64,000 nucleotides of DNA, taken from NCBI RefSeq assembly GCF_000307105.1, contig NC_018645.1, positions 2,813,501 to 2,877,500 on the forward strand, in the 5' to 3' direction. Both the position numbers and the translations under genes were made by a program. This DNA comes from Desulfobacula toluolica Tol2. Its GTDB lineage: Bacteria; Desulfobacterota; Desulfobacteria; Desulfobacterales; Desulfobacteraceae. The notes under the pieces are model-generated. The model saw only the letters and a program-made list of their open reading frames with translations, was not told the DNA's origin and made no database searches. Position 1 is the stretch's first letter. Each line of letters starts with the position of its first letter. Positions 5,867-38,425 of the stretch are shown here, in pieces.

Positions 5867-6850
5867 ATGATAATAGAAAAAGCAAAAGAAGTATTAAGAA
5901 TAGAAGCAGAAAGTATTTTAAAATTAACCCGGAATATTAATACCTCTTTTGAAGATCTGGTTAATATTATTTGCAGTTCTACTGGAAGGGTTGTCATCTC
6001 TGGAATTGGCAAATCAGGACTGATCGGCAAAAAAATTGTTGCCACACTTATCAGCACCGGGACAAATGCAATGTTCCTGCATCCGGTTGAAGCGCTTCAC
6101 GGTGACTTGGGAATGGTGAATAAGGACGATGTGTTTATAGCTATTTCAAACAGCGGTGAAACCAATGAATTGAACCAATTACTCCCGGTAATCAAGCAAA
6201 TCGGGTGTAAAACGGCAGGATTCACAGGAAAAACCAATTCCAGCATGGCAAACTTTTGTGATATCGTCATTGATACAGGGGTTGAAAAAGAAGCCTGTCC
6301 CTTTAATATGGCTCCGACTTCAAGCACAACAGCCCAGCTTGCCATGGGTGATGCCCTGGCTGTTGTATTGATCACCAAGAAAAAATTTAAAAAAAGCGAC
6401 TTCATGAAATCCCATCCCGGAGGTGTTTTAGGGAAACGTCTTTCCTGCAGGGTTGGTGAAATCATGTTTGAGGCATCGACCGCACCGGCTGTATTAACAG
6501 GATCTTCCATGGGGTCGGCCATCGAAGAAATGGATAAATTCAGATTGGGTGCAGTGATTGTTATGGACAAGAACAAAACGCTTAAAGGAATTATCACTGA
6601 CGGAGATATCCGTCATTATCTGGCCAAAACACAATATGATTTAGCAAGCCAACCTGTTGACATGATCATGAGCAAAAACCCGCACACATTAACATCGGAA
6701 TCTTTTTTATATGATGCATTAAATATTATGGAAAAATATCAGATCACAGTGCTTCCCATTGTTGATAAGAAAAACAGGCTTGACGGACTTTTACATTTAC
6801 ACGATATCCTTGGAAAAGGATCTTTTCAATTTAATGGAGGGCATAAATGA
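5867..6850 (+). CDS. kdsD: Arabinose-5-phosphate isomerase (SIS + CBS)
   Basis: KdsD/KpsF interconverts ribulose-5-phosphate and arabinose-5-phosphate, the first step toward KDO for lipopolysaccharide. The 327-residue product has an N-terminal SIS domain (about residues 35-185) with SGIGKSGLIGKKI, HPVEALHGDLGM and SNSGETNEL. The SHPGGVLGKRL link leads to a tandem CBS pair (about 205-320). Its stop overlaps the start of the next gene (ATGA), so it is coupled to the phosphofructokinase gene. Confidence 0.93.
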   Translation: MIIEKAKEVLRIEAESILKLTRNINTSFEDLVNIICSSTGRVVISGIGKSGLIGKKIVATLISTGTNAMFLHPVEALHGDLGMVNKDDVFIAISNSGETNELNQLLPVIKQIGCKTAGFTGKTNSSMANFCDIVIDTGVEKEACPFNMAPTSSTTAQLAMGDALAVVLITKKKFKKSDFMKSHPGGVLGKRLSCRVGEIMFEASTAPAVLTGSSMGSAIEEMDKFRLGAVIVMDKNKTLKGIITDGDIRHYLAKTQYDLASQPVDMIMSKNPHTLTSESFLYDALNIMEKYQITVLPIVDKKNRLDGLLHLHDILGKGSFQFNGGHK

Positions 6851-8166
6851 AAAATTTTGATTTTTGCACGGATATTCCCACTCTTGGAGAAGCAAAAATT
6901 ATATCTCCGCTTAAAAAGCATACCAAACCGGGTGAACCTGAAAAAAGATTTATTTCAGATGATGCAAGGGTAATTGTTGACGTGCAGATAAATCGCCTGG
7001 AATCTGATTTAAAAAAAAACAGCAGCTTTGATCAGGCCGGGCCAAGAGAAAAAATATATTTTGATCCAAGCAAGCTCAAATGTGCCATTGTAACCTGCGG
7101 CGGATTATGTCCTGGATTGAACGATATTATCCGGTCTATTGTCCTGGAACTTTACCACATCTATAATGTTAAAACGATTTATGGAATCAAGCACGGACTT
7201 CAAGGATTTATTCCTGATTTTCAACACGATGTAATGAACTTGAATCCTGATTCAGTATCAGGAATTCAGAATACTGGAGGATCAATATTGGGTTCCTCCC
7301 GGGGAACTCAGGATATCGGTATGATTGTAGATTGTCTTGAAAGAATGACTATCGGCATTCTGTTCATGGTGGGCGGTGACGGGACATTAATGGCATCGAA
7401 AAGAATTGTAGAAGAAATTGAACAAAGGAATTTAAAGATATCGGTTATAGGAATTCCCAAAACAATTGATAATGACATTTACCTGGTATCCAGATCATTT
7501 GGATTTGATACTGCGGTTGATGTTGCAACCCTTGCCATCAAGGGGGCACACAACGAAGCGATTGCATACCCCAATGGAATCGGTTTGGTAAAACTCATGG
7601 GCAGACATTCCGGATTCCTGGCTGCAACGGCTGCACTGGCCCAACAGGATGCTAATTTTGTTCTCATTCCCGAGGTTGATATTTCCCTGGATGGAAAAAA
7701 CGGTTTTTTACAGGCCCTTGAAAATCGAATACTCCATCGAAAACATGCGGTTGTTATTGTGGCCGAGGGTGCGGGTCAGAAATTATTTGATAAACAGCAA
7801 AAAAAGTTTGATCCTTCCGGAAATATTGTTCTTCAGGATATTGGCCTTTTTCTCAAAGAAAAAATATCACAATGGTTTAAGGCAAAAAACATTCCCATTT
7901 CATTAAAATATATTGACCCGAGCTATATCATCAGAAGCCTGCCCGCAAATGCCAATGACAGTGTTTTTTGCGGTTTTCTCGGCCGGGACGCAGTTCACGC
8001 CGGAATGGCAGGAAAAACCAAATTATTGATCAGTTTCTGGAACAACCATTATGTTCATGTACCAATGGATGCTGCATCAGGAAAGCGAAAGAATCTTGAC
8101 CCCCAGGGAAAACTCTGGCAGTCGATTCTGGAAGCAACTGGCCAGGATACTTTTTTTACCGACTGA
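6847..8166 (+). CDS. 6-phosphofructokinase, PfkA superfamily (ATP-type, TP0108-like)
   Basis: This is a 439-residue phosphofructokinase of the long PPi/ATP superfamily. GGDGT at about residues 176-180 carries the glycine expected of ATP users, where PPi enzymes have GGDDT. PKTIDND at about 203-209 carries the lysine seen in PPi-type and trypanosomal/TP0108-like enzymes. The combination points to the ATP-dependent TP0108-like clade (inference; donor use needs assay). FGFDTAV and MGRHSGFLA are also present. It overlaps kdsD by 4 bp and converges on the LpoA-like gene with an 11-bp overlap. Confidence 0.88.
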   Translation: MKNFDFCTDIPTLGEAKIISPLKKHTKPGEPEKRFISDDARVIVDVQINRLESDLKKNSSFDQAGPREKIYFDPSKLKCAIVTCGGLCPGLNDIIRSIVLELYHIYNVKTIYGIKHGLQGFIPDFQHDVMNLNPDSVSGIQNTGGSILGSSRGTQDIGMIVDCLERMTIGILFMVGGDGTLMASKRIVEEIEQRNLKISVIGIPKTIDNDIYLVSRSFGFDTAVDVATLAIKGAHNEAIAYPNGIGLVKLMGRHSGFLAATAALAQQDANFVLIPEVDISLDGKNGFLQALENRILHRKHAVVIVAEGAGQKLFDKQQKKFDPSGNIVLQDIGLFLKEKISQWFKAKNIPISLKYIDPSYIIRSLPANANDSVFCGFLGRDAVHAGMAGKTKLLISFWNNHYVHVPMDAASGKRKNLDPQGKLWQSILEATGQDTFFTD

Positions 8167-9817
8167 TTTCGACAAATTTTCCCTTTTTAATCGTCATAAG
8201 AAAAAGCTCCCTATGGGCAACTCCATTTGCATCAAAAATGGTGTTGCCGGTCACGCCTTCGAACATACGCTTGCCTTGCAGGGTATCCTTCAGCGTCTCC
8301 CGGGAATCAACCGTTTCGTCCATGGCTGTCAAAAAAAGAATGGAAGCCGTATCATAGGATATGGCTTCTAAAAACTTTGGCTTTGTATTAAAGACCGCTT
8401 TGAATTTTTTTACAAATTGAGTTGTCTTTAAATTTTGACTGTTGTCAAAAAATCCGTCAGTTATGATAACTTGCTTGTTATAACCCTTTGCATCTTTCAA
8501 AAGACTTTCATGATGCCACAGATTTGTTCCGACAAGATACATGCCTGTAGCATCGTTAAATGAAAGTTGTGGAAGTATTAAGTTGATATTTGAAGGAGAA
8601 TCAGGAATAAAAAGGGCTTGAAAATCAATCTGAATTTTTTCTTTTGGATTATCATCCTCTTCTGATAGCGGATTGTTTTCAAATTCAACAGCTTCAGGTT
8701 TTAGAAAATCCGGAACCGGGAAAAACTGTCCGGTAAGCTTTTGTATCGGCTTGGTAAAATCTGTTTTTTTACCGTCATATAGCTCTATACCAACGACTTC
8801 TCCACCATATTCATCAACAACATCCCAAAAAAGTTCCATATATTTTTTGCCGTATTTTTCGTTGGGATAGAGAATTGCCACTTTTTTTATTCCAAGTTCC
8901 TGAAACAGATAAGCCCCAAGGGTTCGTACCTGCATATCAGGAGTAATGAAGTTTGAAAATAAATATTCTCCCTGCAGGGGAAACTCGCTTTTTTGTGTTA
9001 ACGCAATCATTGGTATTCCAAGTTTTTCAGCTTCCCGGCCAGCCGGATTAACTGTTAACAATGGCCCTATTATCCCTGCAACGTTTTTTTGATGTAAGTC
9101 TCTTACCCCTTCAATGGCAATATCCGGGTTGGCCCTGGTATCTTTTATAATGAGTTTAAATTCCCTGGAGTATTTTTTTGACAATTCCTGTATGGCCAAT
9201 TGAATTCCGGCCAATGCCCTTTGACCAAAAACAGCATATTTTCCTGTCAAAGGCAAAAGGCACCCAATCGTATCCTTATGAAAAAATGTTTTTTTTATGA
9301 CCGCCACAAGATCAGCTGCATCATTATAATAAGGGTGATCAGGATATTGAAACAAAAAAGTTTCAAGTATCTCTTTTGATTTAACAGCATTGTTTTCCAA
9401 AGCAAAATTAAGCCCTGTCCAATACATTAACAGGGGTTTGGGAATATGGATATTTTTTGTATCCAGAAGCTCTGCTATGGTTATTGCCGGTGTTTTTACC
9501 AGAACCGATTCAATGCGGGATATCAGTTGCGGTGTTTCATCTTCAGTTGCCTGGGCAAGCGCCTGGTCATAAACAAACAAGGCGTCCTTGTAACTTCCCC
9601 GCAAAAAAAATTTATCTGCTTCGGCAGATAAAATTTCAACAAGTGATATTTTTGGCTGATCCTGTTCTGTTTTGTCTTTTGCCGGTTCATCCGCCTCTAC
9701 CGGGAGTTTGTCTTTTTCAAAGGGAGGCTTTCCAGGCAGGTACGAACAAGCAGACAACCACAATATAATATTGAAAATTATGAAAAAATTAAAAAATTTT
9801 GTATGATTAGGCTTCAT
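8156..9817 (-). CDS. LpoA/LppC-like lipoprotein with periplasmic-binding-protein fold
   Basis: The 553-residue product starts with a lipoprotein signal ending in the lipobox LSAC. An acidic/lysine-rich linker and a helical TPR-like region (about residues 75-180) follow. The C-terminal half resembles type I periplasmic binding proteins (GCLLPLTGKYAVFGQRALAGI, VAGIIGPLL, VAILYPNEKYG). This matches penicillin-binding-protein activators of the LpoA type, but an amino-acid-sensing role cannot be excluded. I start at ATG 9817 so that the signal peptide is first; a TTG at 9856 also opens the frame. It lies downstream of miaA on the same strand. Confidence 0.8.
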   Translation of the reverse strand: MKPNHTKFFNFFIIFNIILWLSACSYLPGKPPFEKDKLPVEADEPAKDKTEQDQPKISLVEILSAEADKFFLRGSYKDALFVYDQALAQATEDETPQLISRIESVLVKTPAITIAELLDTKNIHIPKPLLMYWTGLNFALENNAVKSKEILETFLFQYPDHPYYNDAADLVAVIKKTFFHKDTIGCLLPLTGKYAVFGQRALAGIQLAIQELSKKYSREFKLIIKDTRANPDIAIEGVRDLHQKNVAGIIGPLLTVNPAGREAEKLGIPMIALTQKSEFPLQGEYLFSNFITPDMQVRTLGAYLFQELGIKKVAILYPNEKYGKKYMELFWDVVDEYGGEVVGIELYDGKKTDFTKPIQKLTGQFFPVPDFLKPEAVEFENNPLSEEDDNPKEKIQIDFQALFIPDSPSNINLILPQLSFNDATGMYLVGTNLWHHESLLKDAKGYNKQVIITDGFFDNSQNLKTTQFVKKFKAVFNTKPKFLEAISYDTASILFLTAMDETVDSRETLKDTLQGKRMFEGVTGNTIFDANGVAHRELFLMTIKKGKFVEISR

Positions 9818-9875
9818 ATTGTTAACACTTATTTTATTTATTATCTCAACTTTCAAAGTTAAGTTCGAGCAGACG

Positions 9876-9899
9876 GGAGGTCAGGCAAGCCTGGCCTCC
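9876..9899. repeat. Short strong hairpin between miaA and the LpoA-like gene
   Basis: GGAGGTCAGGC (9876-9886) and GCCTGGCCTCC (9889-9899) form a near-perfect 11-bp inverted repeat with one mismatch or wobble. No T-tract follows, so this is not a classic terminator. A REP-like element or RNA processing site is possible. Confidence 0.5.
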
Positions 9900-9956
9900 A
9901 TCCTTTAACTTATCCTTGTGAACCTGTGGCGTATGGACTATATGAAAAACAAAAGG

Positions 9957-10868
9957 CTATGTCAAAAATTGTTTGATCAGTTTTTCAGCCAAATCAACCT
10001 GGGACGGCTCAAACCAATGGATATCTTTATCCTGACGAAACCATGTAAACTGACGTTTTGCATATCGCCTGGTGTCACGCTTTAATAGCCTGACAGCTTC
10101 TGTCCAATCCACCTCATTTTTAATGAACATGCCCATATGTTTATAACCGATGGACTGCATGGGTTTCAAGTCAAAGGAATATCCCATTTCAGCCAGAGTG
10201 GTGACTTCGTGGAGCAACCCTTGCTCAAGCATCAGATCAACCCTTTTATTAATGCGGTCATATAATTTTTCCCTGTCCATGAAAAGGCCTATTTTCAGAC
10301 TGTTGTATCTTAATTCATCAAAATTATGAGTATCTTGCCGGTCTGAAATCAGACGACCTGTTGTTTGATACACCTCCAATGCCCTGATAACTCTGAATGA
10401 ATCATTGGGATGTATTTTTTGAGCAGCTTTGGGATCACACTTTTCAAGTTTTTCATAAAGACTTTGGTTGCCTTGTTCTTCAAGTTCGGCAGTCAATTGT
10501 GACACTGTTTGTTCACATATGGGTTTTGACCGGAACAAACCATGCAACAAAGCCCTGATATAAAGACCTGTGCCTCCAACAATGACTGGAATTTTTCCGC
10601 AGGCGGTAATTTTTTCAATGGCTTGATCTGCGTTTTTTACATATAGGCCTGCATCAAAATCATCTTTTGGATCGATAAAATCCACAAGATGATGCCGTGC
10701 CAGTTTTAATTCTTCGGAGGTTGGTTTGGCAGTACCGATATTCATATGCTTATAAATCTGCATTGAATCCGCACCGATAATTTCCGCGTTAAAACGCTTT
10801 GCAACCCGTATGGCAACTGTTGTTTTGCCAATTCCTGTGGGACCGCAAATGACAATAATTTTCTTCAT
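9957..10868 (-). CDS. miaA: tRNA dimethylallyltransferase MiaA
   Basis: MiaA prenylates A37 of UNN-reading tRNAs. The 303-residue product shows the P-loop GPTGIGKTT and ADSMQIYKHMNIGTAKPT. It also has the VGGTGLYIRALLHG segment and RRYAKRQFTWFR near the C-terminus, all diagnostic of the family. The ATG at 10868 places the P-loop about eight residues from the N-terminus, as expected. It is the first gene before the LpoA-like gene on the minus strand and is divergent from hdrA. Confidence 0.96.
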   Translation of the reverse strand: MKKIIVICGPTGIGKTTVAIRVAKRFNAEIIGADSMQIYKHMNIGTAKPTSEELKLARHHLVDFIDPKDDFDAGLYVKNADQAIEKITACGKIPVIVGGTGLYIRALLHGLFRSKPICEQTVSQLTAELEEQGNQSLYEKLEKCDPKAAQKIHPNDSFRVIRALEVYQTTGRLISDRQDTHNFDELRYNSLKIGLFMDREKLYDRINKRVDLMLEQGLLHEVTTLAEMGYSFDLKPMQSIGYKHMGMFIKNEVDWTEAVRLLKRDTRRYAKRQFTWFRQDKDIHWFEPSQVDLAEKLIKQFLT

Positions 10869-10897
10869 AAACAATATATATATTCATTCAATAAGTG

Positions 10898-10927
10898 TTG
10901 ACAACCTTTGTTTGATCGCTTTATAAC
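10898..10927 (+). promoter_or_regulatory. Candidate sigma70-type promoter for the hdrA operon
   Basis: A consensus TTGACA (10898-10903) is followed 18 bp later by TATAAC (10922-10927), about 100 bp upstream of the hdrA start. It is the only strong match I see in the miaA-hdrA gap. A ribosome-binding site (AGGAGA, 11011-11016) precedes the ATG. Confidence 0.55.
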
Positions 10928-11024
10928 ATAATACTTTGGCTAAGAAAATATAAGCTTTATAAAATCATAAACAATTTAAATAATTAAATAGATATGATCT
11001 TTATAGAAACAGGAGAATGTTAAT

Positions 11025-14000
11025 ATGAGTAATAAACTAACCGGATCTGTAGTTGTGATTGGTGGCGGTATTTCCGGCATGCTTTCAGCTTTAGACCTTG
11101 CAAATTCCGGGTACTACGTTTATTTGGTGGAAAAAGGTCCCTCAATAGGCGGCGTTATGGCCCAGCTGGACAAGACCTTTCCGACAAATGACTGTGCAAT
11201 GTGAATTATCTCACCCACACTGGTCGAGGTCGGCCGGCATTTAAACATTGAGCTTTTAACGCTTTCAGAAGTTATTGATGTAAAAGGTGAGAAAGGTAAT
11301 TTTCAGGTAGAAATTTTAAAAAAGCCGAGATATGTAGATGAAAATCTTTGTGTCGGCTGTGGCGCATGTGCGGAAAAATGCCCTGGAAAATTTGATGATA
11401 CCTACAATGCAGATCTAAAAAAAAGAACGGCTATTTATGTTGAATATCCCCAGGCCGTACCATTAAAATATGCCATTAATCCGGATGTCTGCTTAAAACT
11501 GACAAAAGATAAATGCGGTACCTGCGAAGAAGTCTGTCCTGCCAATGCAATTGATTATACACAAACCGAAAAGAAACTAACCATTGATGCAGGATCAATT
11601 ATTTTTTCTCCTGGGTTTACACCCTTTGATCCGTCAAAATTTGATAATTATCAATATGCAAAATTTCCCAATGTTGTAACATCCATGGAATTTGAGCGAA
11701 TTTTGTCGGCAACCGGCCCCACCATGGGACATGTGACAACATTTCCGAAATTGCCGGTCAAACCTAAGAAGAAAAAAGACAAACTGCTGGCTGAAAAAAG
11801 AAAAGATCCCAAAAAAATCGCATGGTTTCAATGTGTGGGGTCAAGGGATATCAACAAATGTGATAACCCTTACTGCAGTTCTGTCTGCTGTATGTATGCA
11901 GTAAAAGAGGCTATTATAGCCAAAGAGCATGCAGGCAGTGATCTTGACTGCTCTATTTTCTTTATGGACATGCGGACACCTGGCAAGGAATTTGAAAAAT
12001 ACTATCAGACTGCCAAAGAAAAACACGGCATTAATTTTATCCGCTCCAGGGTTCATTCAGTCACTGAAAATCCTGAAACCCACGACCTGGATATACGCTA
12101 TGTTGATGAACTGGGTCAAATTATTGATGCAACCTATGACATGATTGTTCTTTCCGTGGGGCTTGAAATTCCGCCTGAAACAAAAGAGCTTGCCCAAAAA
12201 CTGGGTATTGATCTGACACCCAGCGGATTTTGCAAAACCGACTCCTTTGAACCGGTTTCAAGTTCCAGAGATGGTGTTTATGTGTCCGGTGTATTCAACA
12301 ATCCAAAAGATATTCCCGAATCGGTTCTGGATGCCAGTGCAGCAGCATCGGCTGCCGGGGATGCCCTAAGTTCTGCCAGAGACACCCTGACCAAGGCGAT
12401 TGAAAAAACACCTGAAATAAATGTCGTGGGAGAACGACCCAGAATCGGTGCGTTTATTTGTGATTGCGGCTCAAATATCAAGGGTGTTGTGGACTGTGCA
12501 GCCGTCACGGAATATGCAAAGACTCTGCCCTATGTTGAATTTGCCGATGAAGCCATGTATGCCTGCAGCCAGGATGCCCAGGATAAAATGGTCGAATATA
12601 TCAAAGAAAAAAATCTTAACCGGATTGTGGTTGCGGCATGTACGCCAAAAACACATGAGCCGCTGTTCCAGGAAACACTTGCCAATGCAGGGTTAAATAA
12701 ATATTTGTTTGAAATGACCAATATTCGTAACCATAATTCCTGGGTACATAAAAACAATCCTGAACTTGCCACTGAAAAAGCCAAAGACCTGGTACGCATG
12801 GCAGTTGCCAAGGCGGCTTTAGCCGAACCATTAAAAGAAGAAAAAATCAATGTAAATGATTCTGTTGTGGTTATTGGTGGCGGACTGGCAGGCATGACCT
12901 CTGCAAAGAGTCTTGCAACCCAGGGATATCAGACGCATATTATTGAGAAAAAAGAACGGCTGGGAGGTGAAGCTCATAAACTTTATAAAACCGCCCAGGG
13001 TGAAAATGTTCAAGCCAAACTTGATGAGCTGATCAAAGAGATTGAAAGCAATGACAATATAACGGTTCATTGCAATACCACTCTTGAAAGTGTTGACGGA
13101 TTTGTCGGCAATTTTAAATCTACTTTGAAGAATGCTGATAAAGAATTTGAACTTGAGTATGGTGTGGCTGTTCTGGCTACGGGTGCCAAAGCCTTTGTAA
13201 CAGATGAATATGAATACGGAAAAGATGAGCGTATCATCACATCCCTTGATCTGGATAAGATGTTCAAGGAAGATGATGCCAGGCTTGATGCCGTGAATTC
13301 TGCGGTTTTTATCCAGTGTGTGGGATCACGACAACCTGATCGCCCCTATTGTTCAAGGGTCTGCTGTACACACTCCGTTGACAGCGCCATTGAACTCAAA
13401 GAACGCAAACCTGATATGGACGTGTTTATTCTTTACCGTGATATCAGAACCTATGGGGAAAGAGAGCTTTTATACAAAAAAGCAAGAGAACTAGGGGTTA
13501 TTTTTATCAGGTATGATGTGGAGAATAAACCAGCCGTCAGAATTGCCGACGGAAAGGTTTTGATCAAAGCAACGGATCATGTGTTGAACCAGCCCATTGA
13601 AATTGAAGCCGATCTGCTCACCCTTGCAACTGCAATCGTTCCAAGAAGAGATGAAAAATTGGCCAATTTTTATAAAGTACCGCTCAATGACGAGGGTTTC
13701 TTTGTTGAAAAACATGCTAAATTAGGTCCTGCGGAATTTGCAACTGATGGTGTATTTGTCTGTGGTTCAGGCCATTATCCAAAACCCGTCAACGAAGCAA
13801 TCACACAGGGAAGAGCATCCGCATCCAGGGCGCTTACCCTTCTTGCAAAAAAAGAAAGTCTGTTTACCAGTGGAACCATTGCAAGTGTTGATCAGATGAA
13901 ATGCAGCCAATGCGGAGTTTGTGTATCCATTTGTCCCTATTCGGCTCCAGGCTTTGTAACGGAAGGAAGGTTTGAGGGAAAAGCAGAAGTCAACCCGGTA

Positions 14001-14117
14001 CTGTGCAAAGGATGCGGACTGTGTGTCGCTTCTTGCAGATCCGGCGCTTTGCACCTCAGAGGCTTTGATACAAATCAGATTTTTTCACAAATATTTGCAC
14101 TGGGTGAAGTAGGTTAA
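11025..14117 (+). CDS. hdrA: HdrA-type flavin/Fe-S electron-transfer subunit, selenoprotein (in-frame UGA at 11202)
   Basis: HdrA is the FAD/4Fe-4S hub of heterodisulfide-reductase-like complexes. The gene runs 1030 codons from ATG 11025. TGA at 11202-11204 (residue 60) falls in [19 protein letters not shown], where standard HdrA has cysteine, so it is read as selenocysteine. A 7-bp hairpin starts 16 nt after the UGA. Domains seen: an N-terminal FAD Rossmann motif ([14 protein letters not shown]), ferredoxin-like clusters ([19 protein letters not shown]), a second Rossmann motif ([14 protein letters not shown], about residue 615), and C-terminal clusters [11 protein letters not shown] and [11 protein letters not shown]. 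This is the long, two-module form. It is first in an operon with mvhD and Flx-like genes. Confidence 0.93.
11220..11237 (+). promoter_or_regulatory. Candidate bacterial SECIS hairpin in hdrA
   Basis: CTGGTCG (11220-11226) and CGGCCGG (11231-11237) can form a 7-bp stem, including G-U pairs, with a four-base AGGU loop. The stem begins 16 nt after the UGA. Bacterial SECIS elements lie just 3' of the UGA inside the reading frame with a short GU-containing apical loop, which fits. Confidence 0.6.
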
Positions 14118-14132
14118 AGGAGATCATAACGA

Positions 14133-14555
14133 ATGGCTGAAAAAGATATTAAAATTGTAAGCTTTCTATGCAACTGGTGCAGTTATGGTGCAGCAGACCT
14201 TGCAGGTGTCAGCAGGATGGAATATCCGGCTGATATTCGGGTTATACGAATTCCCTGCTCCGGCAGGATGAGTCCTAAATTCATACTTTCAGCATTGAGA
14301 GAAGGCGCGGATGCCGTATGGGTTTCCGGCTGACATCCGGGTGAATGTCATTACCTGGATGGTAATTATTATGCACGCAGAAAATTTGCACTCATGGGAA
14401 ATCTTTTGGAACATATGGGAATTGAACGAGACAGAGTCCATTTTTCTTGGATCTCGTCTGCCGAGGCAACCAAGTTTGTAGATGTGGTTAAAGAGATTTC
14501 AGATAAAGTAAGGGCACTTGGGCCAAATAAGAAACTTGTAAAGGACTATAATTAA
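14133..14555 (+). CDS. mvhD: MvhD/FlxD-type electron-transfer subunit, selenoprotein (in-frame UGA at 14331)
   Basis: MvhD-like proteins carry a 2Fe-2S cluster and pass electrons to HdrA. The frame from ATG 14133 to TAA 14553-14555 encodes 140 residues, with TGA as codon 67 in [17 protein letters not shown]. Most homologues have cysteine there (GCHPGDCHY). Translation continues with conserved sequence on both sides ([15 protein letters not shown] before, [15 protein letters not shown] after), so the UGA is selenocysteine rather than a nonsense mutation. It starts 15 bp after hdrA behind AAAGGAG. The nearby hairpin at 14350 supports recoding. Confidence 0.93.
14350..14366 (+). promoter_or_regulatory. 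Candidate bacterial SECIS hairpin in mvhD
   Basis: ATTACC (14350-14355) and GGTAAT (14361-14366) form a perfect 6-bp stem with a UGGAU loop, the loop starting 22 nt after the UGA. An alternative 9-bp stem (14334-14342 with 14353-14361) begins directly after the UGA. The two structures are mutually exclusive. Confidence 0.55.
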
Positions 14556-14568
14556 TAAAGGTAAGTTT

Positions 14569-15528
14569 ATGAATACCTGTATAAATAAAATCAGGGAACT
14601 TTCTTTGGAACTTCTGGATAAAGGAGAGGTTGTTAAAGTTATTGGTTTTGCAAACGGAACCATTCCCATGGCAACAAGTCCTATTACCATTTCATCAAAA
14701 CAAGATGTTGAAAAATTGGTTTTTAATTCAACATGCGGACTTAATCTTGCTAGTTATATAAAACAAAGTATTAAAAATAAAAAAGACAAAATTGCGATTA
14801 TCGCCAAAGGGTGTGATACAAGAAACATTGTCACCCATATTGTCGAAAATCAAGTCAGCAGAGACCAGGTGCATATCATTGGTGTACCCTGTAAAGGAAT
14901 GGTAGATAAAAACAAAATTGCATCCTTGTTCGAGGATGAAATCATCGAATTCACAGAAGACGGTGATACATTGAATGTTAAATCTTCCATAAAAGAAGAA
15001 AAACTGGAGAAAAAGGATTATCTGAGAGAAAACTGCAAGCTTTGCATGCACAAAAATCCAGTGATTTATGATGCGCTGGCAGCAGACCTTGTTGAAGAAC
15101 AAAACCTTGATAATCCTTATCCTGATGTTGACAAAATCGAGGCAATGGATTCGGATACAAAATGGCAGCATTTTCAAGATCTGACACAAAACTGTATTCG
15201 ATGTTATGCATGTAGAAATGCATGTCCCTTATGCTATTGTCCCACATGCTTTGTGGATGAATCAGGCCCCCAATGGGTTGGCAAAGGCCAGGACAAAACA
15301 GATGTAGACACTTTTCATTTTTTAAGAGCGTTCCATTGTGCCGGTCGCTGTACGGACTGTGGTGCATGTGTGGAAGCCTGCCCCATGAATATTAATGTCA
15401 GGGACTTTACAAGAAAGCTGAATAAAGATGTTTTTGAAATGTTTGGCTGGGAAGCAGGGCTGGATATTAATAAACGTCCTCCCCTGGACGCATACAGTCC
15501 GGATGATCCCAACGATTTTATCAAGTAA
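14569..15528 (+). CDS. 4Fe-4S electron-transfer protein of the Hdr/Flx cluster (FlxB/FrhB-like)
   Basis: This is a 319-residue cytoplasmic iron-sulfur protein. The N-terminal half resembles FrhB/FdhB-type or Flx subunits (AIIAKGCDTRNIVTHI, VHIIGVPCKGMVD) and includes CKLCMHKNP. The C-terminal third holds two cysteine clusters, CIRCYACRNACPLCYC and CTDCGACVEACP, typical of two 4Fe-4S centres. It follows mvhD by 13 bp behind a weak ribosome-binding site. In this operon, which lacks HdrB and HdrC, it could take the electron-relay role of HdrC (inference). Exact subunit naming is uncertain. Confidence 0.75.
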   Translation: MNTCINKIRELSLELLDKGEVVKVIGFANGTIPMATSPITISSKQDVEKLVFNSTCGLNLASYIKQSIKNKKDKIAIIAKGCDTRNIVTHIVENQVSRDQVHIIGVPCKGMVDKNKIASLFEDEIIEFTEDGDTLNVKSSIKEEKLEKKDYLRENCKLCMHKNPVIYDALAADLVEEQNLDNPYPDVDKIEAMDSDTKWQHFQDLTQNCIRCYACRNACPLCYCPTCFVDESGPQWVGKGQDKTDVDTFHFLRAFHCAGRCTDCGACVEACPMNINVRDFTRKLNKDVFEMFGWEAGLDINKRPPLDAYSPDDPNDFIK

Positions 15529-15544
15529 ATAAAAAGGGTATACA

Positions 15545-16597
15545 ATGAAATTTATAAAAATTGATAAAAAAGACTGGGCCAAGGGCATTGAAAAATCCAG
15601 GGAAACCTATCAGCTTTTTGGTCCTGTCAAAGATAAAAACGGCTTTTTCATCAAAAGTCTTGAAAAGGATGTATTGCCAGACATGGAATATCATGATTCC
15701 GTGATGTCGGCAAAATCGGTGCTGTTCCCGCAAACGGAAAAAATGCTTAGCGCGACCCTGGATGAATCTTGTGAAGATCATCACATAATGAAAAACATTC
15801 AAGATGATTATTCGCCAAGAGCAGTTGTGGGAATCCGGCCATATGACGCAAAAGCCGTGGAGCTGGTAAAACTTAATTTTGATACCGAGGATTACCGTGA
15901 CCCTTATTGGTGTGATGCATATGAAGCAACAACCTTTGTAGGTTTGGGCATCAACAAACCCGGGCCTTTTGATTTTTCAACATCCACAGGTTCAGGGCCA
16001 TTTTGTGAAGACGGGCTTGATGTCCTTCTGGCAGATCTTGATGACATGTATCTGGCAAAGGTTCTTACGGATAAAGGGGACGCCTTTCTGGGAGCCTGCG
16101 GGTTTGATAAGGTTGTCGATGAAAAAGAAAGTGGAGTGATGTTTGATGTTTTGAGAAAAGAAGCTGAAAAAAACATTACTTCTCAAATTGATACGGATAA
16201 ATTAAAAGACAAAACCATTCTTGAGCTTCATGAAGCACCTTTCTGGGATGATCTTGCATTTTCCTGCATCAATTGCGGCACCTGCACATATGTGTGTCCC
16301 ACCTGCTGGTGTTTTGACATACAAGACGAAACCAAGCAAAAATCAGCCACCAGGTTCCGTAACTGGGATACCTGCATGTCTCCTCTGTTTACACGTCACG
16401 CAACAGGACATAATCCAAGGGAGTCAAAAACCCAGAGGGTCAGACAAAGATTCATGCATAAACTGAAATATTTTCTTGATAAATACGACCAGGGGATCAT
16501 GTGTGTCGGATGCGGCAGATGTGTTAAAAGCTGTCCGGTTAATATCGATATCCGTGAAGTGTGCAACCGTATGAACTCGTACGAAAAACAAGATTAG
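15545..16597 (+). CDS. 4Fe-4S dicluster protein, FlxC/AsrA-like
   Basis: The 350-residue product resembles the Fe-S subunits of anaerobic sulfite reductase (AsrA) and of sulfhydrogenase/Flx complexes. Features include an N-terminal region with VVGIRPYDAKAVELV, then the clusters CINCGTCTYVCPTCWC and CVGCGRCVKSCP near the C-terminus. It would relay electrons between the flavin reductase encoded next and the MvhD/HdrA pair. It starts 16 bp after the preceding gene and ends 19 bp before the reductase, so all five genes look cotranscribed. Confidence 0.82.
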   Translation: MKFIKIDKKDWAKGIEKSRETYQLFGPVKDKNGFFIKSLEKDVLPDMEYHDSVMSAKSVLFPQTEKMLSATLDESCEDHHIMKNIQDDYSPRAVVGIRPYDAKAVELVKLNFDTEDYRDPYWCDAYEATTFVGLGINKPGPFDFSTSTGSGPFCEDGLDVLLADLDDMYLAKVLTDKGDAFLGACGFDKVVDEKESGVMFDVLRKEAEKNITSQIDTDKLKDKTILELHEAPFWDDLAFSCINCGTCTYVCPTCWCFDIQDETKQKSATRFRNWDTCMSPLFTRHATGHNPRESKTQRVRQRFMHKLKYFLDKYDQGIMCVGCGRCVKSCPVNIDIREVCNRMNSYEKQD

Positions 16598-16616
16598 CGG
16601 ACAAAGGAGGAAACAC

Positions 16617-17462
16617 ATGGAAAACCCCTATATACCGTATCCAGTTCGCATTGATGAAATTGAAATTGCAACTGAAGACAAGTCCTTGAAAACGTTTAAA
16701 TTTGTTTTTTTAAACAAGGAGGATGAAGAAAAATTTTCCTATCAGGCCGGACAATTTGCTGAATTGTCTATCCCTGGCATAGGAGAAATTCCCATTGGAA
16801 TCGCATCATCTCCCGTTGAAAAAGGATTTGTAAAATTCACAGTATTTAGAACAGGTGTTGTCACCGCCCACCTTCACAACATGAAGGTGGGAGATATAAT
16901 GGGAATCAGGGGGCCTTTGGGCAATTGGTATCCCTGGGACAAGCTGGAAAATAAAAATGTGGTTATCATTGGCGGCGGATTTGCATTTACTACCTTAAGA
17001 TCTTCCATTATTTATATGCTGGACCCTTCCAACAGAAGCAAATTTAAAAATATTGACGTGGTTTACGGTGCAAGATCTCCAGGCATGCTTTTGTACCGGG
17101 AAGAACTTTTCGAATGGGAAAAACGCGATGATATCAACATGCATATTACGGTTGATGGAACCGATGACCCTGACTGGAAATACCACACCGGATTTGTTCC
17201 AACAATTGTTGAGCAAAATGCTCCTAAAGCGGATGAAGATACTTATGCCATTATCTGCGGACCACCGATCATGATTAAATTTACCCAGCCTGCATTAACA
17301 AAGCTTGGTTATCAGGAACACCAGATTATAATGTCCCTGGAAAACAGAATGAAATGCGGAATCGGCATGTGCGGCAGATGTAATATCGGGAAAGAACTGG
17401 TTTGTAAAGACGGTCCAGTCTTTACTCTTGAAGAAATCAACCAAACCCCGAAAGAATATTAA
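16617..17462 (+). CDS. FAD/NAD(P)H-binding oxidoreductase, FlxA/AsrB-like
   Basis: This 281-residue ferredoxin-NADP reductase-like protein has an FAD-binding beta-barrel (YQAGQFAELSIPG, GIASSPVEKGF), an NAD(P)-binding domain (VVIIGGGFAFTTLRS), and a C-terminal cysteine motif for a 2Fe-2S cluster (MKCGIGMCGRCNIG with a later cysteine in KELVCKDGP). It is the likely NAD(P)H entry or exit point of the Hdr/Flx complex. It has a good ribosome-binding site (AAAGGAGGAAACAC-ATG) and is last in the operon, 123 bp before dsrC. Confidence 0.87.
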   Translation: MENPYIPYPVRIDEIEIATEDKSLKTFKFVFLNKEDEEKFSYQAGQFAELSIPGIGEIPIGIASSPVEKGFVKFTVFRTGVVTAHLHNMKVGDIMGIRGPLGNWYPWDKLENKNVVIIGGGFAFTTLRSSIIYMLDPSNRSKFKNIDVVYGARSPGMLLYREELFEWEKRDDINMHITVDGTDDPDWKYHTGFVPTIVEQNAPKADEDTYAIICGPPIMIKFTQPALTKLGYQEHQIIMSLENRMKCGIGMCGRCNIGKELVCKDGPVFTLEEINQTPKEY

Positions 17463-17479
17463 ATCAACTTGATTTTATA

Positions 17480-17509
17480 TTGACAAGTAACCATTGCTTA
17501 AGATATGTT
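17480..17509 (+). promoter_or_regulatory. Candidate promoter for dsrC
   Basis: TTGACA (17480-17485) and TATGTT (17504-17509), spaced 18 bp, lie about 75 bp upstream of dsrC. The -10 match is imperfect. The 123-bp gap and the terminator after dsrC suggest that dsrC can be transcribed on its own. Confidence 0.4.
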
Positions 17510-17585
17510 TAGCATTCAATTATTGAAGCTAAGACAGTATGTCTTAAAATGATAAGAAAAAAAACCTTTTACAGGAGGAAATTAA

Positions 17586-17903
17586 ATGGCAACAATTGAA
17601 TTTAACGGGAAATCTTTCGAAATAGATGAAGATGGATTTCTTCTTGATTACAATCTTTACAACACTGAATGGGTTGATTATGTAAAAACTCAAGAAGGTA
17701 TTGAGGAACTTACTGACGAACATTGGCTGCTTGTAAAAGTTCTTCAGGACTATTACGAAAAAAATGGTATTGCTCCAATGGTTAGAGTTCTTTCAAAACT
17801 GACCAAGTTTAAACTGAAACACATCTATGAACTATTCCCGTCAGGACCTGGAAAAGGTGCATGTAAAATGGCCGGTCTTCCAAAACCAACCGGATGTGTA
17901 TAG
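17586..17903 (+). CDS. dsrC: DsrC, sulfur-carrier protein of dissimilatory sulfite reduction
   Basis: DsrC accepts the sulfur of sulfite from DsrAB as a trisulfide that is then reduced, usually through DsrMKJOP or Hdr-like proteins. The 105-residue product has the canonical C-terminal arm CKMAGLPKPTGCV with both redox cysteines (Cys93 and Cys104) ten residues apart. This marks a functional DsrC rather than a TusE-like paralogue. A strong AGGAGGAAATTA ribosome-binding site precedes the ATG, and an efficient hairpin follows. Its place directly after the Hdr/Flx operon hints that the DsrC thiol/disulfide pair could be a substrate of that complex (inference). Confidence 0.96.
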   Translation: MATIEFNGKSFEIDEDGFLLDYNLYNTEWVDYVKTQEGIEELTDEHWLLVKVLQDYYEKNGIAPMVRVLSKLTKFKLKHIYELFPSGPGKGACKMAGLPKPTGCV

Positions 17904-34263: not shown

Positions 34264-36216
34264 ATGTCGAAAAGCACAACAGCCGCAGAAATGGTAGATA
34301 AAATTGATCTGACAAAGTTACTGCCAAATTTTAAATCGGTGCTAAATGGATTCCCGCAAAGCGCAGAGGATTTAAGCGCATGGTTTATTTTGATACTTTT
34401 GGGTGTTTTTATTTCATTCTTAATTCCATCTATATGGAAATCATTTAAAACATTCAGGCAAATTAAATGGTTAAAAAATCTTTTAAAAGAACATACTTCA
34501 GAAACGATAGCAGAAAGTAGACAAGATTTTATAGATAAGGCCCAAAAAGTAAAACATGACGTTGGACACTTATGGTTAGAATTCAATGAGACTCTAATTG
34601 AGGGTGATCGAAATAATAAGATCCGTCTTTATAATACATATGATGCAGCATATTTTTTTAATTCAGCAACATTGGCACCAGGGATTACTGGTAGTCGGCT
34701 TATTGCTGCTGTTCCTGGTTTTCTAACCGCAATTGGTGTTGTTGGGACTTTTGTTGGACTTCAACTTGGTCTTGCTCAACTTAATATCGCGAATGATGTT
34801 TCTATAGAAGAAATGAAAGCAGGTGTGGCCGGAGTTATAAATGGAGCAAAGCTCGCTTTTATAACTTCGGTTTGGGGTGTAATACTCAGTGTTCTGTTCA
34901 ATATCATTGAAAAAATTATCGAGCGGGCAACTAAAACAAAGATTACCCAGGTACAGAACCTTATTGATAAATTATTTAATCGGATTAGTCCGGAAGAGCA
35001 GCTTCAACGCATTGCAAATGACGGTAAACAATCTCGCGAGAGCCTTCAAGGTCTTGCGGAAAAGATCGGATTAAAAATGCAGGAATCTTTAATTCAAGCG
35101 ACCGAGGGAATCCAATCAGGATTGGAAACAAGTTTGGAGAAGATCATGGCTCCGGCTATCAATAAGTTGGTGGATGAGACATCAGATGGTAATCAGAAAG
35201 CCTTGGAAAATCTACTGGACAAATTCATGGAGAAATTTGGTACTGAAGGAGGGCAGCAAAGACAGGCAATGGATGACGCCTCTGATAAAATGAATGCATC
35301 TTTAGCTTCTTTCGGAACATCCATGCAGGCCTTTCTTGATAAAATGGAAGTTTCTCAAAATAACGTTGCCCAAAAAGAAGAAGAGTTGGTTGAAAATATT
35401 TCATCTCAGGTAAATTGGTTGGTTGAGAATACAAGTTCTCAGAATAAAGTTCTTACAGAATTTATTGAAAATACATTTGGTGAACTTTCAGATAAACTAA
35501 ATAATAGAGATGACGTTGCTGCTAATAGAGAAAGAATACGGGGTGAAGAATTCATAAATCAGACAAATGAAATGAAAAAAGGTACGTCGGATTTATTAGA
35601 GCGAATTGATCAGGGTTTAAAAACTCAATTTAAGGAAACAAGGGAACTACTAAATCAAGGACAATCTCTCCAAAGTTCAATAACGGAATCAGTCTCAGCA
35701 AATGCCAAAGCCACTAAACATATGAAGGAAACATCCTCAGAATTAAACTCAACGGTCAGCAAGTTAAAAACTTTTGGTGGGTATATTCATCAAACGGGGA
35801 TGAAACTATCAGAAACAATCACAGCAGCGGTAGCAAGCACTGAGACGCTTGCAAAAGAAAACCAGGCCAGTACATCAGAGATAAAGAAAATATTCGAACG
35901 AATCCTGGTAAGCTCCAATGAATTCAATACTCTTATTCAGAAAATGAAAAACTTAGTAGATACTGCGGATACTATGTTTGAAAAGATGGATGATCAACAA
36001 CACTCTTATCTCGCTCAGTTGAAACAAAATGTGGAAGAGTTAGCTGTGAAAATGAGTAATTTGCTTAAAGACTACGCAAGTCAAGCAAATGGTCAGACAG
36101 CACAACATCTTAGGGTTTGGGCTGAAGGGACTACACAATATACTACCAGTATGAATAATGCAGCTCAAGCTCTTGCATCTGTTGTAGATGATATAGAAGT
36201 AAAGTTGGGACGTTAA
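34264..36216 (+). CDS. zorA: ZorA: MotA-like stator subunit of a type I Zorya defence system
   Basis: ZorA and ZorB form a 5:2 inner-membrane, ion-driven motor thought to sense phage infection. The 650-residue product has an N-terminal membrane helix (AWFILILLGVFISFLIPSI, about residues 40-60). Two MotA/ExbB-like helices flank a cytoplasmic loop: GFLTAIGVVGTFVGLQLGL (about 150-175) and KLAFITSVWGVILSVLFNII (about 198-220). From about residue 235 to the end it is almost entirely helical/coiled coil, matching the long cytoplasmic tail of ZorA. It is first of four tightly packed genes, 1 bp before zorB, with a good ribosome-binding site. Confidence 0.93.
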   Translation: MSKSTTAAEMVDKIDLTKLLPNFKSVLNGFPQSAEDLSAWFILILLGVFISFLIPSIWKSFKTFRQIKWLKNLLKEHTSETIAESRQDFIDKAQKVKHDVGHLWLEFNETLIEGDRNNKIRLYNTYDAAYFFNSATLAPGITGSRLIAAVPGFLTAIGVVGTFVGLQLGLAQLNIANDVSIEEMKAGVAGVINGAKLAFITSVWGVILSVLFNIIEKIIERATKTKITQVQNLIDKLFNRISPEEQLQRIANDGKQSRESLQGLAEKIGLKMQESLIQATEGIQSGLETSLEKIMAPAINKLVDETSDGNQKALENLLDKFMEKFGTEGGQQRQAMDDASDKMNASLASFGTSMQAFLDKMEVSQNNVAQKEEELVENISSQVNWLVENTSSQNKVLTEFIENTFGELSDKLNNRDDVAANRERIRGEEFINQTNEMKKGTSDLLERIDQGLKTQFKETRELLNQGQSLQSSITESVSANAKATKHMKETSSELNSTVSKLKTFGGYIHQTGMKLSETITAAVASTETLAKENQASTSEIKKIFERILVSSNEFNTLIQKMKNLVDTADTMFEKMDDQQHSYLAQLKQNVEELAVKMSNLLKDYASQANGQTAQHLRVWAEGTTQYTTSMNNAAQALASVVDDIEVKLGR

Positions 36217-36217
36217 T

Positions 36218-36970
36218 ATGCTTAGACGATTTGTTCAAAGCCAGGCTACTGTTGATGAAGAAAATCCATACTGGCTATCCTTTTCTGATTTGATGTCGGC
36301 TCTTCTCGTGGTTTTTATCCTAGCGGCGGTTGCTTTGATTATAGAGTTGACCCAAACTCAAAAGATTATTCAACGGGATATTGAAGAATTAAGGAATGCT
36401 GAACAAGCCAGAAAACAGATATTATATGAAATTAAAGATGAGCTTGCGTCTAAAAACATAAAAGTTGAAGTTGCTGATAATGACACCGTGTTGAGAATTC
36501 CTGAAAATACGCTGACATTTGATTCCGGTCATGATGAAATCCCTGAGGCTGAAGAGGTACAAAGGGCTGTCACCGCAATTGGGCTGGCATTACATCTGGC
36601 CATTAATAAACCTTTTAGTGACACGAATAATAAAATGCGGTTCGAATATCTCGATACAGTATTTATAGAAGGGCATACAGACAGTGTGCCTTTCAAAAGG
36701 ATAAAAGGGGGAAATTGGAGGCTATCAACAGATAGAGCTATTTCCTTATGGAAATTTTGGGAAAAGCACCTTGCTCTTACTCCAAGCTTCAATGAAATGG
36801 AGAATGCATACAAACAAAAATTGTTTTCGGTCAGTGGTTATGCTGCCTCCCGGCGGGTGCAAACTATTGAAAAAACACCTGAACAACGGCGGCGTAACCG
36901 TAGAATTGATTTGCGATTTACAGTTAAGCGACCATCTATTGCTGAATTAGAGGATATTGCTGATCGATGA
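36218..36970 (+). CDS. zorB: ZorB: MotB/OmpA-like stator subunit of the Zorya system
   Basis: The 250-residue product has a single N-terminal membrane helix preceded by YWLSFSDLMSALLVVFILA. Asp24 occupies the position of the proton/sodium-carrying aspartate of MotB. A periplasmic OmpA-like peptidoglycan-binding domain follows (about 100-235) with FIEGHTDSVPFKR, NWRLSTDRAISLWKF and ASRRVQT...RRRNRRIDLRF. This is the ZorB arrangement, with a linker of about 60 residues. It overlaps zorC by ATGA. Together with ZorA it anchors the motor to the cell wall. Confidence 0.94.
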   Translation: MLRRFVQSQATVDEENPYWLSFSDLMSALLVVFILAAVALIIELTQTQKIIQRDIEELRNAEQARKQILYEIKDELASKNIKVEVADNDTVLRIPENTLTFDSGHDEIPEAEEVQRAVTAIGLALHLAINKPFSDTNNKMRFEYLDTVFIEGHTDSVPFKRIKGGNWRLSTDRAISLWKFWEKHLALTPSFNEMENAYKQKLFSVSGYAASRRVQTIEKTPEQRRRNRRIDLRFTVKRPSIAELEDIADR

Positions 36971-38424
36971 AGCCTGCTATATTGTCAGTTCAAGGATTGA
37001 AATTTATAATACCAGATGATCCTTTTGGGCATTATCTTGCTAAGATAAAAAGGCTTGAAAACCAGTTGTCTTCTCTGGCTAAAAAGGCTGGTACTGAAAA
37101 TAAAAAGTTTAATGCCGCCTTGAATTCTTTAGTAGAGAGCGTGCGCAGGAATAGAGATTTAGAAACCGAACTGGATTCTCCTATTAAAGTCAGGGCGCTG
37201 GCAGTATCTTTGACCACCAGTTGTGCAGAACACATTAGTTTAACACAAAGAATTCTAAATAAAATTGATCAGTTAAGGCCCAAGCCGAGTACGCTGCTTC
37301 TCCAGAGTATGTATCACTTCTATTTGAAACGTTATGACAAATTGCATGATCCGAGAGCTGTTGCAAAATGGTTGTTAAAATCACTGCCAAAACGAAATCT
37401 TAAAAAGTCATTTCATGATACATTGTTGAGCCCAGATGGGCCTAAATGGCTCGCAAAAGAGTCTATTCGTACCAACCGGGAATTTCAAAATATTGTGTCA
37501 TATTTAGGATTGGACCGGTATGCCTCAGGTAGATTTATGACAATTGCTAAAAACATCTATTATGTAGAACAATTGAAACTGATCCCATTAAATCAACACC
37601 ATAATTTATTGTTGGAAGTTCAAAAGAGTTCAGTATATGAATCTACTTACGATGAATCATACCTCGTTGGCCATAAGGTCTTGGAAATCTTAATAAGCAG
37701 AGCTGCCAATACGAAAATTGATGACAGTTGGCTTAATGTGATTATGTCTATTGCCGGTGATCCCAGAGTCCCCAAGGACCATCCTTTGTTTCAAAAATGG
37801 TGGAGCCTGTTAGATCAGCGCCTTTATAATATAGTAATAGGTTGGCTCTCTAAATTAGACCTTCGTTTGTTTTTGGAGGCACTTGAAAATTATTCTAACC
37901 TTCCAGGCAAAGAAGAGTTGCACAGAATGTTTCCATCCCGGAAGAAATTTTTAGAAGGGTTGGATGATAAAAAGTTGATTGCACATACTCGCCTATATCT
38001 TTCAAAAAGTGCAGAACGATATCTAAAGAGTAACTATAAGCCCGAACATTTGCCAGCATACTCAATGGTGAATGATGGGACCAGATCCTTAATACATGTA
38101 CAGTTTGTTAACAATCAAGCACATATGGTAGAGGGGAGTCACAGTTGTTTCTTATGGTTATATAGAAAATTACATTCTTCAGCCGTTGTATATGACTATG
38201 GAGCCAATTTTGTGTTTTATAGCGAGCTGACATCTGGATTGAATCAAAAAATGATTGAGAAAAATTGTGAGGCTGTTGCTCAGATCAAACACACGCCTGT
38301 CAATTTCAGGTGGCAGAAAAATGCGATTGAAGCTTTAAGGGGACTTGGCGTATATATTTCACCCCAAGATGTCTTATCACTTGAGGATTATAGGTCGTTT
38401 AAACGAAAATTTGGGGTAATATAA
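36967..38424 (+). CDS. zorC: ZorC: EH-signature cytosolic effector/adaptor of type I Zorya
   Basis: The 485-residue soluble, largely helical protein fits ZorC by position (between zorB and the helicase gene), size and lack of membrane segments. The C-terminal part contains MVEGSHSCFLWLYRKL (Glu389 by my count) and IKHTPVNFRWQ (His442), consistent with the EH signature region that gives the domain its name. In studied type I systems ZorC binds DNA and is needed with ZorD for the intracellular response. Assignment rests on context and these motifs; it overlaps zorB by 4 bp. Confidence 0.85.
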   Translation: MKPAILSVQGLKFIIPDDPFGHYLAKIKRLENQLSSLAKKAGTENKKFNAALNSLVESVRRNRDLETELDSPIKVRALAVSLTTSCAEHISLTQRILNKIDQLRPKPSTLLLQSMYHFYLKRYDKLHDPRAVAKWLLKSLPKRNLKKSFHDTLLSPDGPKWLAKESIRTNREFQNIVSYLGLDRYASGRFMTIAKNIYYVEQLKLIPLNQHHNLLLEVQKSSVYESTYDESYLVGHKVLEILISRAANTKIDDSWLNVIMSIAGDPRVPKDHPLFQKWWSLLDQRLYNIVIGWLSKLDLRLFLEALENYSNLPGKEELHRMFPSRKKFLEGLDDKKLIAHTRLYLSKSAERYLKSNYKPEHLPAYSMVNDGTRSLIHVQFVNNQAHMVEGSHSCFLWLYRKLHSSAVVYDYGANFVFYSELTSGLNQKMIEKNCEAVAQIKHTPVNFRWQKNAIEALRGLGVYISPQDVLSLEDYRSFKRKFGVI

Positions 38425-38425
38425 T

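Follow-up and report, generated by a model that had tools for sequence, protein, structure and literature searches.

The hdrA gene of the sulfate-reducing bacterium Desulfobacula toluolica carries a UGA codon within its reading frame. It must be asked whether this codon ends the protein or is read as an amino acid and, in the latter case, what the residue would do in the enzyme. The DNA analysed is a stretch of 64,000 nucleotides, here called the window; positions are those of the window unless a contig or locus is named. A sequence-only reading of this DNA had proposed selenocysteine (Sec) at residue 60. The gene and its codon are as follows:

11025-14117, + strand: hdrA, encoding a fused, two-TrxR "type II" HdrA of 1030 codons through UGA readthrough (frame listing, domain and fold matches)
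11202-11204, + strand: in-frame TGA, predicted selenocysteine 60 in C57-A-M-U60 (homologous loci, genome pattern counts)

The TGA at 11202-11204 is the sole internal stop of the frame, and in the hdrA translation U60 sits in TNDCAM-U-IISP. Homologous loci were collected from a search of the order Desulfobacterales (29 loci) and from a second search (80), giving 109; locus L097 has no alignment over codon 60 and is left out of the count. Codon 60 is TGA in 47 of the 108 aligned loci, TGC in 33 and TGT in 28; other codons are absent. Every aligned locus therefore has either cysteine (61/108) or UGA (47/108) at this position, and the protein is conserved on both sides of it. The 1030-codon frame with its single TGA, the cysteine of the homologues and the conserved flanks had all been put forward from the letters alone, and each is borne out. 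For hdrA codons 61 to the end, dN/dS (Nei-Gojobori) is 0.057 against L078, 0.048 against L094, 0.049 against L082 and 0.035 against L083, the last with synonymous sites near saturation; for L095 they are saturated. Values of about 0.05 indicate strong selection on the protein encoded beyond the TGA.

If the TGA were a true stop, a sequencing error or the mark of a pseudogene, a 59-residue product and a restarted C-terminal part would be separate. The codon itself is what such an explanation expects, and an ATG-started open frame is found at 11685. Against it stand 47 further loci with TGA at this codon (many of them related), the low downstream dN/dS and the continuity of the domains. The conserved TGA and the low dN/dS all but rule this explanation out, and we give it practically no weight.

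A hairpin follows the TGA:

11220-11237, + strand: putative SECIS hairpin, CTGGTCG-AGGT-CGGCCGG, identical in 52 of the 53 UGA copies examined (exception L025)

This is the 7-bp hairpin with an AGGU loop, 16 nt downstream, of the sequence-only reading. Two of its seven pairs are G-U, its first base is the 16th after the TGA, and the region has an MFE of -10.2 kcal/mol (48 nt folded). The 18-mer is identical in all 47 TGA loci of the other-genome comparison. Across 146 genomes of the order, the pattern TGA-N15-18mer is found at 329 sites in 122 genomes, whereas TGY-N15-18mer is found in none; a control with the reversed pattern gave no hit in any row. The 329 sites set against none also speak against a true stop. 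The exact pattern, which misses UGA copies with other hairpins, occurs in 75 of 247 genomes drawn from the phylum, a draw that includes 9 of the order. Rfam at gathering score reports no SECIS in the 64-kb window and lists three tRNAs only.

The hairpin region is unusually uniform at the nucleotide level. The 48 TGA sequences (47 and the window) have one form per codon in CTG GTC GAG GTC GGC CGG, and most other nearby codons in them are variable; the same six positions in the 61 Cys sequences range from 5 to 15 codon forms, some of which change the amino acid. Because the codons are frozen where UGA is present and TGY sites are absent, the hairpin is selected as nucleic acid, in a manner tied to UGA. 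As strongly as sequence can indicate it, the hairpin at 11220-11237 would be the SECIS that directs decoding of UGA 11202; binding by SelB is predicted. A nearly frozen SECIS of 18 nt would also be a simple marker for mis-annotated hdrA genes in the phylum.

Within the D. toluolica genome a hairpin follows the UGA in 6/6 copies, and the identical 18-mer is present in 5/6 (window included) and in 0/8 Cys copies. The sole exception seen is the Sec-type HdrA of L025 (contig C1 near 1366402), whose coding sequence is divided between two frames; its hairpin has a different stem, five bases further on, and a GGTC loop. A near-SECIS (at most one mismatch) is found in six of the 33 Cys rows which encode LVEVGR, where 0.9 would be expected. 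In these rows (L101, L117, L120, L123, L124 and L200) the SECIS is one base off intact and stands behind TGT. They are at most suggestive of remnants of Sec-to-Cys conversion; the rows fall in two clades, so they do not represent six separate events.

Selenocysteine insertion requires its own machinery, and a search for selA, selB, selC and selD had been proposed along with the codon. The whole genome, one 5.2-Mb contig, contains all four: tRNA-Sec scores 76.5 bits (cut-off 47), and selA (605.6 bits), selB (358.7) and selD (360) are each above the curated cut-off; selD itself has one TGA. In the order as a whole, selB is matched at 1e-60 in 125/146 genomes. Eighteen of the 21 genomes without a match still carry UGA-SECIS sites; these are draft genomes, selA is present in 20 of the 21, a tRNA-Sec above the cut-off in 15, and none lacks both. 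The missing selB is likely to reflect draft incompleteness. Since selB is found in most genomes and UGA-SECIS sites occur without it, a co-occurrence test has little power, and co-occurrence was dropped as a strong argument. In genome G142, contig C71 carries both selA and, about 5 kb away from it, a second tRNA-Sec gene that passes the cut-off (63.8 bits).

UGA 11202 of D. toluolica hdrA is very probably decoded as selenocysteine. SelA, SelB, SelC and SelD would carry out the insertion, with the hairpin at 11220-11237 as signal. Another decoding would have UGA 60 read as cysteine, at least at low selenium, by a selC* tRNA-Cys together with SelB*. Such a system, whose tRNA is charged with Cys, has been proposed for some Desulfobacterales (Mukai et al. 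2017, via PMC7609411), and selC*/selB* pairs do occur in relatives. The D. toluolica genome, however, has one selB and one tRNA-Sec over the cut-offs; no second selC/selB pair over the cut-offs was found in it. We consider a cysteine at codon 60 of this gene highly improbable.

The place of Sec60 in the enzyme depends on the architecture of the protein, which consists of two halves:

11025-12377, + strand: half 1 (residues 1-451), a TrxR/FAD domain with inserted ferredoxin; it contains U60, E224 and K294 and has no N-terminal cluster domain
12432-14114, + strand: half 2 (residues 470-1030), with N-terminal cluster domain, second TrxR domain and C-terminal ferredoxin domain

The HdrA domain set (N-terminal cluster, TrxR/FAD, inserted and C-terminal ferredoxin) is complete, with two copies of the TrxR domain and an altered order. 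Residues 10-445 align with 155-569 of 8rvu_a, residues 469-626 with 9-166, and residues 889-1025 with 521-651. An AlphaFold2 model (35 sequences) has a mean pLDDT of 83.7 and a pTM of 0.86; residues 46-57 are below pLDDT 50, and the loop preceding U60 is thus of low confidence. In VIA-align, half 1 of the model matches the HdrA of 8rwn_A (Z 34.5, rmsd 1.5, 424 residues), and the model from residue 470-472 on matches the HdrAs of 7bkb and 5odc (Z 30.4 and 29.6). Below the HdrAs in the ranking come flavin reductases of other kinds, thioredoxin reductases for the most part. The NCBIfam HdrA2 model (NF040770) gives 923.3 bits, below its curated cut-off of 1100; it has 777 positions and also spans a fused MvhD domain, and the separate flxD gene here scores 169.2 bits at positions 647-775. 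The label "HdrA-like" holds; "HdrA2" does not.

The bifurcation residues of HdrA are E356 and K409 in the numbering of M. thermolithotrophicus (PMC12054007). Their counterparts in half 1, E224 and K294, are found in 35/35 rows, and the bifurcating flavin is therefore probably bound by half 1. In half 2 of this HdrA both counterparts are Asp (alignment read by eye). Residue 786, which corresponds to K409, is D in the window and K in 15/35 rows; a second bifurcating flavin is therefore possible in relatives.

HdrA residues 6-108 align without gaps on residues 143-245 of 5odc chain A (phmmer), and U60 falls on residue 197. Cys197 is the ligand which one HdrA lends to the N-terminal cluster of its partner in the archaeal dimer (PMC9012536); the source names M. 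wolfeii as the origin of the structure, and the numbering is the ground for equating this Cys197 with the M. thermolithotrophicus residue 197 (5odc). Fused HdrAs show complementary loss of Cys197 and the N-domain (PMC9012536). In the window HdrA, the N-terminal cluster domain of half 2 contains C479, C481, C514 and C539, all invariant in the alignment, and residues 640-699 of half 2 have no conserved Cys (no column with Cys in more than 3/35 rows). As half 1 has U60 without an N-domain, and half 2 has an N-domain without such a Cys, U60 is probably a selenolate ligand of the cluster.

Sec60 would then stand in for the cysteine ligand of an Fe-S cluster, taken as [4Fe-4S]. By homology, half 1 would lend U60 to the cluster in the N-terminal domain that opens half 2. 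This cluster lies on the low-potential route that leads from the bifurcating FAD to ferredoxin, and the role of the selenolate would be to tune or protect the ferredoxin exit. The sequence-only reading had held that a selenol may tune the flavin or a cluster; with the Cys197 alignment, the cluster, probably on the ferredoxin side, is the part that can be kept, and a direct role at the flavin is less likely. We regard it as likely that Sec60 is inserted through the SECIS and the Sel machinery and that it serves, most probably, as an Fe-S cluster ligand on the ferredoxin branch.

Sec60 might also be inserted and not be a ligand; its selenol would then be redox-active and could, for instance, pair with C57 as a selenenylsulfide close to the flavin. 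C57 and C/U60 make up a CxxU motif, both are invariant in the alignment, and CxxU is typical of redox selenoproteins. It is also the motif given for HdrA in a review (PMC13188914). However, published work assigns the aligned Cys197 to a cluster as its ligand (PMC9012536), and each of the fused HdrAs compared has retained a single Cys197 position along with a single N-domain; a ligand role explains this pairing and a redox role does not. We judge the selenol role unlikely and retain the reading of Sec60 as a cluster ligand.

The genes downstream of hdrA indicate the complex in which this ligand would work:

14133-14555, + strand: flxD/mvhD (FlpD family), 140 codons, putative second selenoprotein gene of the operon
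14331-14333, + strand: in-frame TGA of flxD, VSG-U67-HPGEC
14350-14366, + strand: candidate flxD SECIS, ATTACC-TGGA-TGGTAAT
14569-15528, + strand: Fe-S protein, FlxC-like (name inferred from the operon)
15545-16597, + strand: Fer4_22 protein, FlxB/HydB/AsrA-like (name inferred)
16617-17462, + strand: FAD/NAD-binding protein, FlxA/HydG-like (HydG/AsrB/FlxA kind), probable NAD(P)H entry
17586-17903, + strand: DsrC, C-terminus CKMAGLPKPTGCV, two cysteines

The flxA-D genes are present beside hdrA, with gene names partly inferred. FlxABCD-HdrABC is a proposed NADH-fed bifurcating complex, and DsrC is its proposed disulfide partner in Desulfovibrio (Ramos et al. 2015, via PMC6687939). The gene content of the window operon (HdrA, FlxD, Flx Fe-S proteins, FlxA and DsrC) suggests that the complex bifurcates electrons from NADH and that a DsrC-type disulfide is its high-potential acceptor. 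It counts against the main reading that Flx-Hdr systems normally have HdrBC; the genes at 14133-17903 include no HdrB or HdrC family match.

The sequence-only reading had mentioned neither the in-frame TGA of flxD nor the known family of Sec-containing HdrAs. Most compared relatives have ATTACC-TGGA-AGGTAAT at equal distance behind the flxD TGA; in the window, the MFE fold favours another hairpin than the candidate SECIS. The HdrA/FlxD residue pairs in 80 loci are U/U (19), C/C (47), C/U (4) and C without FlxD (9), with 1 unscored. In 42 chosen other-genome loci they are U/U (19), U/none (1, at a contig end), C/C (16), C/U (2) and C/none (8), with 1 spurious GGG row; in the D. toluolica genome without the window they are U/U (2), U/C (3), C/C (7) and C/none (2). 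Every Sec-HdrA of the window operon type with a readable FlxD is U/U (38 rows; the two sets may overlap). As a general rule the linkage of HdrA-Sec with FlxD-Sec is weak, since other paralogues do not follow it.

An unrelated system is found elsewhere in the window:

34264-41875, + strand: type I Zorya anti-phage system, ZorA, ZorB, ZorC and ZorD (PADLOC E 1.6e-232, 5.9e-101, 3e-205 and 0)

D. toluolica has several HdrA paralogues. The best 14 of 29 matches to the HdrA N-terminus in its genome have TGA (6) or Cys (8) at codon 60; the 15 weaker matches, with E 7.6e-14 and above, are second TrxR halves or weak and were left out. Two Sec HdrA copies, L212 and L213 (C1 near 455991 and 5160364), have identical tree rows and are probably a recent duplication. 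A Cys-type copy of the operon is found in L171 at 6717-14457 (C1 about 3383716-3391456). Identity to the window operon is 57% for HdrA, 62% for FlxD, 48% for the FlxC-like protein, 45% for the FlxB-like protein and 68% for FlxA; HdrA and FlxD are both Cys in this copy, and an extra, HdrD-like gene comes first. No conserved 5' leader was seen before the Cys operon, whose start was located in 8 of the 16 loci tried.

The HdrA tree has 107 rows (65 Cys, 42 Sec), and the Sec label requires 4 changes. The nearest neighbour of the window HdrA is L094, from a Desulfobacula metagenome bin (91% identity). The D. toluolica Cys HdrA belongs to a 13-row all-Cys set (99*). All 13 genomes of this set also have a TGA HdrA among the matches listed; the loci of the set were picked from that match list, and the sample is not random.

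In 13 fetched genomes of the order a second, weaker selB match is found, in 12 of them with a second tRNA-Sec-like gene nearby. The discriminator position of the second tRNA is U in 12/12 (by eye); that of tRNA-Sec is normally G (PMC5330540). The U discriminator and the second selB together fit a selC*/selB* system. In five of the 13 (L158, L159, L160, L161 and L167), selC*/selB* is less than 4 kb from a Cys-type HdrA, and the second selB is divergent, with 26-32% identity to own SelB. Where it lies beside a Cys-type HdrA, selC*/selB* is possibly a selenium-starvation module. In Methanococcus maripaludis, selenium supply determines whether the Sec or the Cys forms are used (PMC11097638). The titles or opening abstracts of the literature searched yielded no description of a selB*-HdrA(Cys) neighbourhood or of an invariant SECIS.

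Other second selB genes have different neighbours. At L169:7335-10467 the second selB overlaps a frame with a cysteinyl-tRNA synthetase-like start (by eye), which fits the described cysS*; ARAGORN finds no tRNA near it. The second selB pairs of L162, L163 and L168 are near 2-hydroxyacyl-CoA dehydratase-like and activase-like genes (by eye), and that of L162 has selD and a formate dehydrogenase-like gene among its neighbours as well.

A wider model can be offered tentatively. Sec60 would be a selenolate ligand between the halves of the pseudodimer, at the ferredoxin exit, and the Sec enzyme and the Cys operon of Desulfobacterota would be an isoenzyme pair. In some species the Cys operon, selC* and SelB* would form a selenium-starvation module, which swaps the enzyme and simultaneously rereads UGA as Cys in the remaining selenoproteins. 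As a whole this model is possible rather than probable.

To our knowledge, selenium as a ligand of an Fe-S cluster has rarely been shown directly. For all but a few proteins, such as FdhA, FrhA and FrhD, the interactions of Sec with ligands are deduced from homologues that have Cys (PMC13188914). HdrA is a testable case: it offers one defined cluster, Sec and Cys isoforms in one cell, and fused halves which can be separated.

HdrA is already known as a selenoprotein family, and the window HdrA is a genuine further member. Sec-containing HdrAs are described in Desulfobacterium autotrophicum HRM2 (HdrA1, HdrA2, HdrL1 and HdrL3; PMC2702500), in Syntrophobacter fumaroxidans, Syntrophus and others (PMC1794560), and in Desulfococcus multivorans (PMC5109826). 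The window HdrA shares with these deltaproteobacterial proteins a UGA-encoded Sec, neighbouring mvhD/frhD selenoprotein genes (in several cases) and the CxxU motif (PMC13188914). The hdrA-frhD-frhG-frhA operons (PMC1794560) carry hydrogenase genes, whereas the window operon has HdrA-FlxD, Flx subunits of NADH type and DsrC. A nearly invariant SECIS was not met in the excerpts of these descriptions.

Methanococcus maripaludis HdrA-U/VhuD shares Sec in both proteins, and paired Cys isoforms at selenium depletion (PMC11097638, PMC2933860). The archaeal HdrAs whose structures are known have one TrxR domain per subunit and form dimers; the window HdrA is instead a fused pseudodimer with a bacterial SECIS in frame. 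Type II or fused HdrAs (PMC12054007, PMC9012536) also have two TrxR domains, and Cys197 and the N-terminal cluster domain in complementary halves. In HdrA3/4 of ANME the half with the N-domain comes first and the Cys197 half second; the order is reversed in the window HdrA, and Sec takes the Cys197 position. FlxABCD-HdrABC (PMC6687939) shares the FlxA-like NAD/FAD protein, Fe-S proteins, FlxD, HdrA and DsrC as proposed partner, but it includes HdrB and HdrC, both absent from the window operon. Three things go further than the published descriptions, as far as the excerpts of these sources extend: a SECIS that is nearly frozen, the placing of Sec at the shared-ligand position of a fused HdrA, and the setting of the gene among Cys isoenzymes and selB*.
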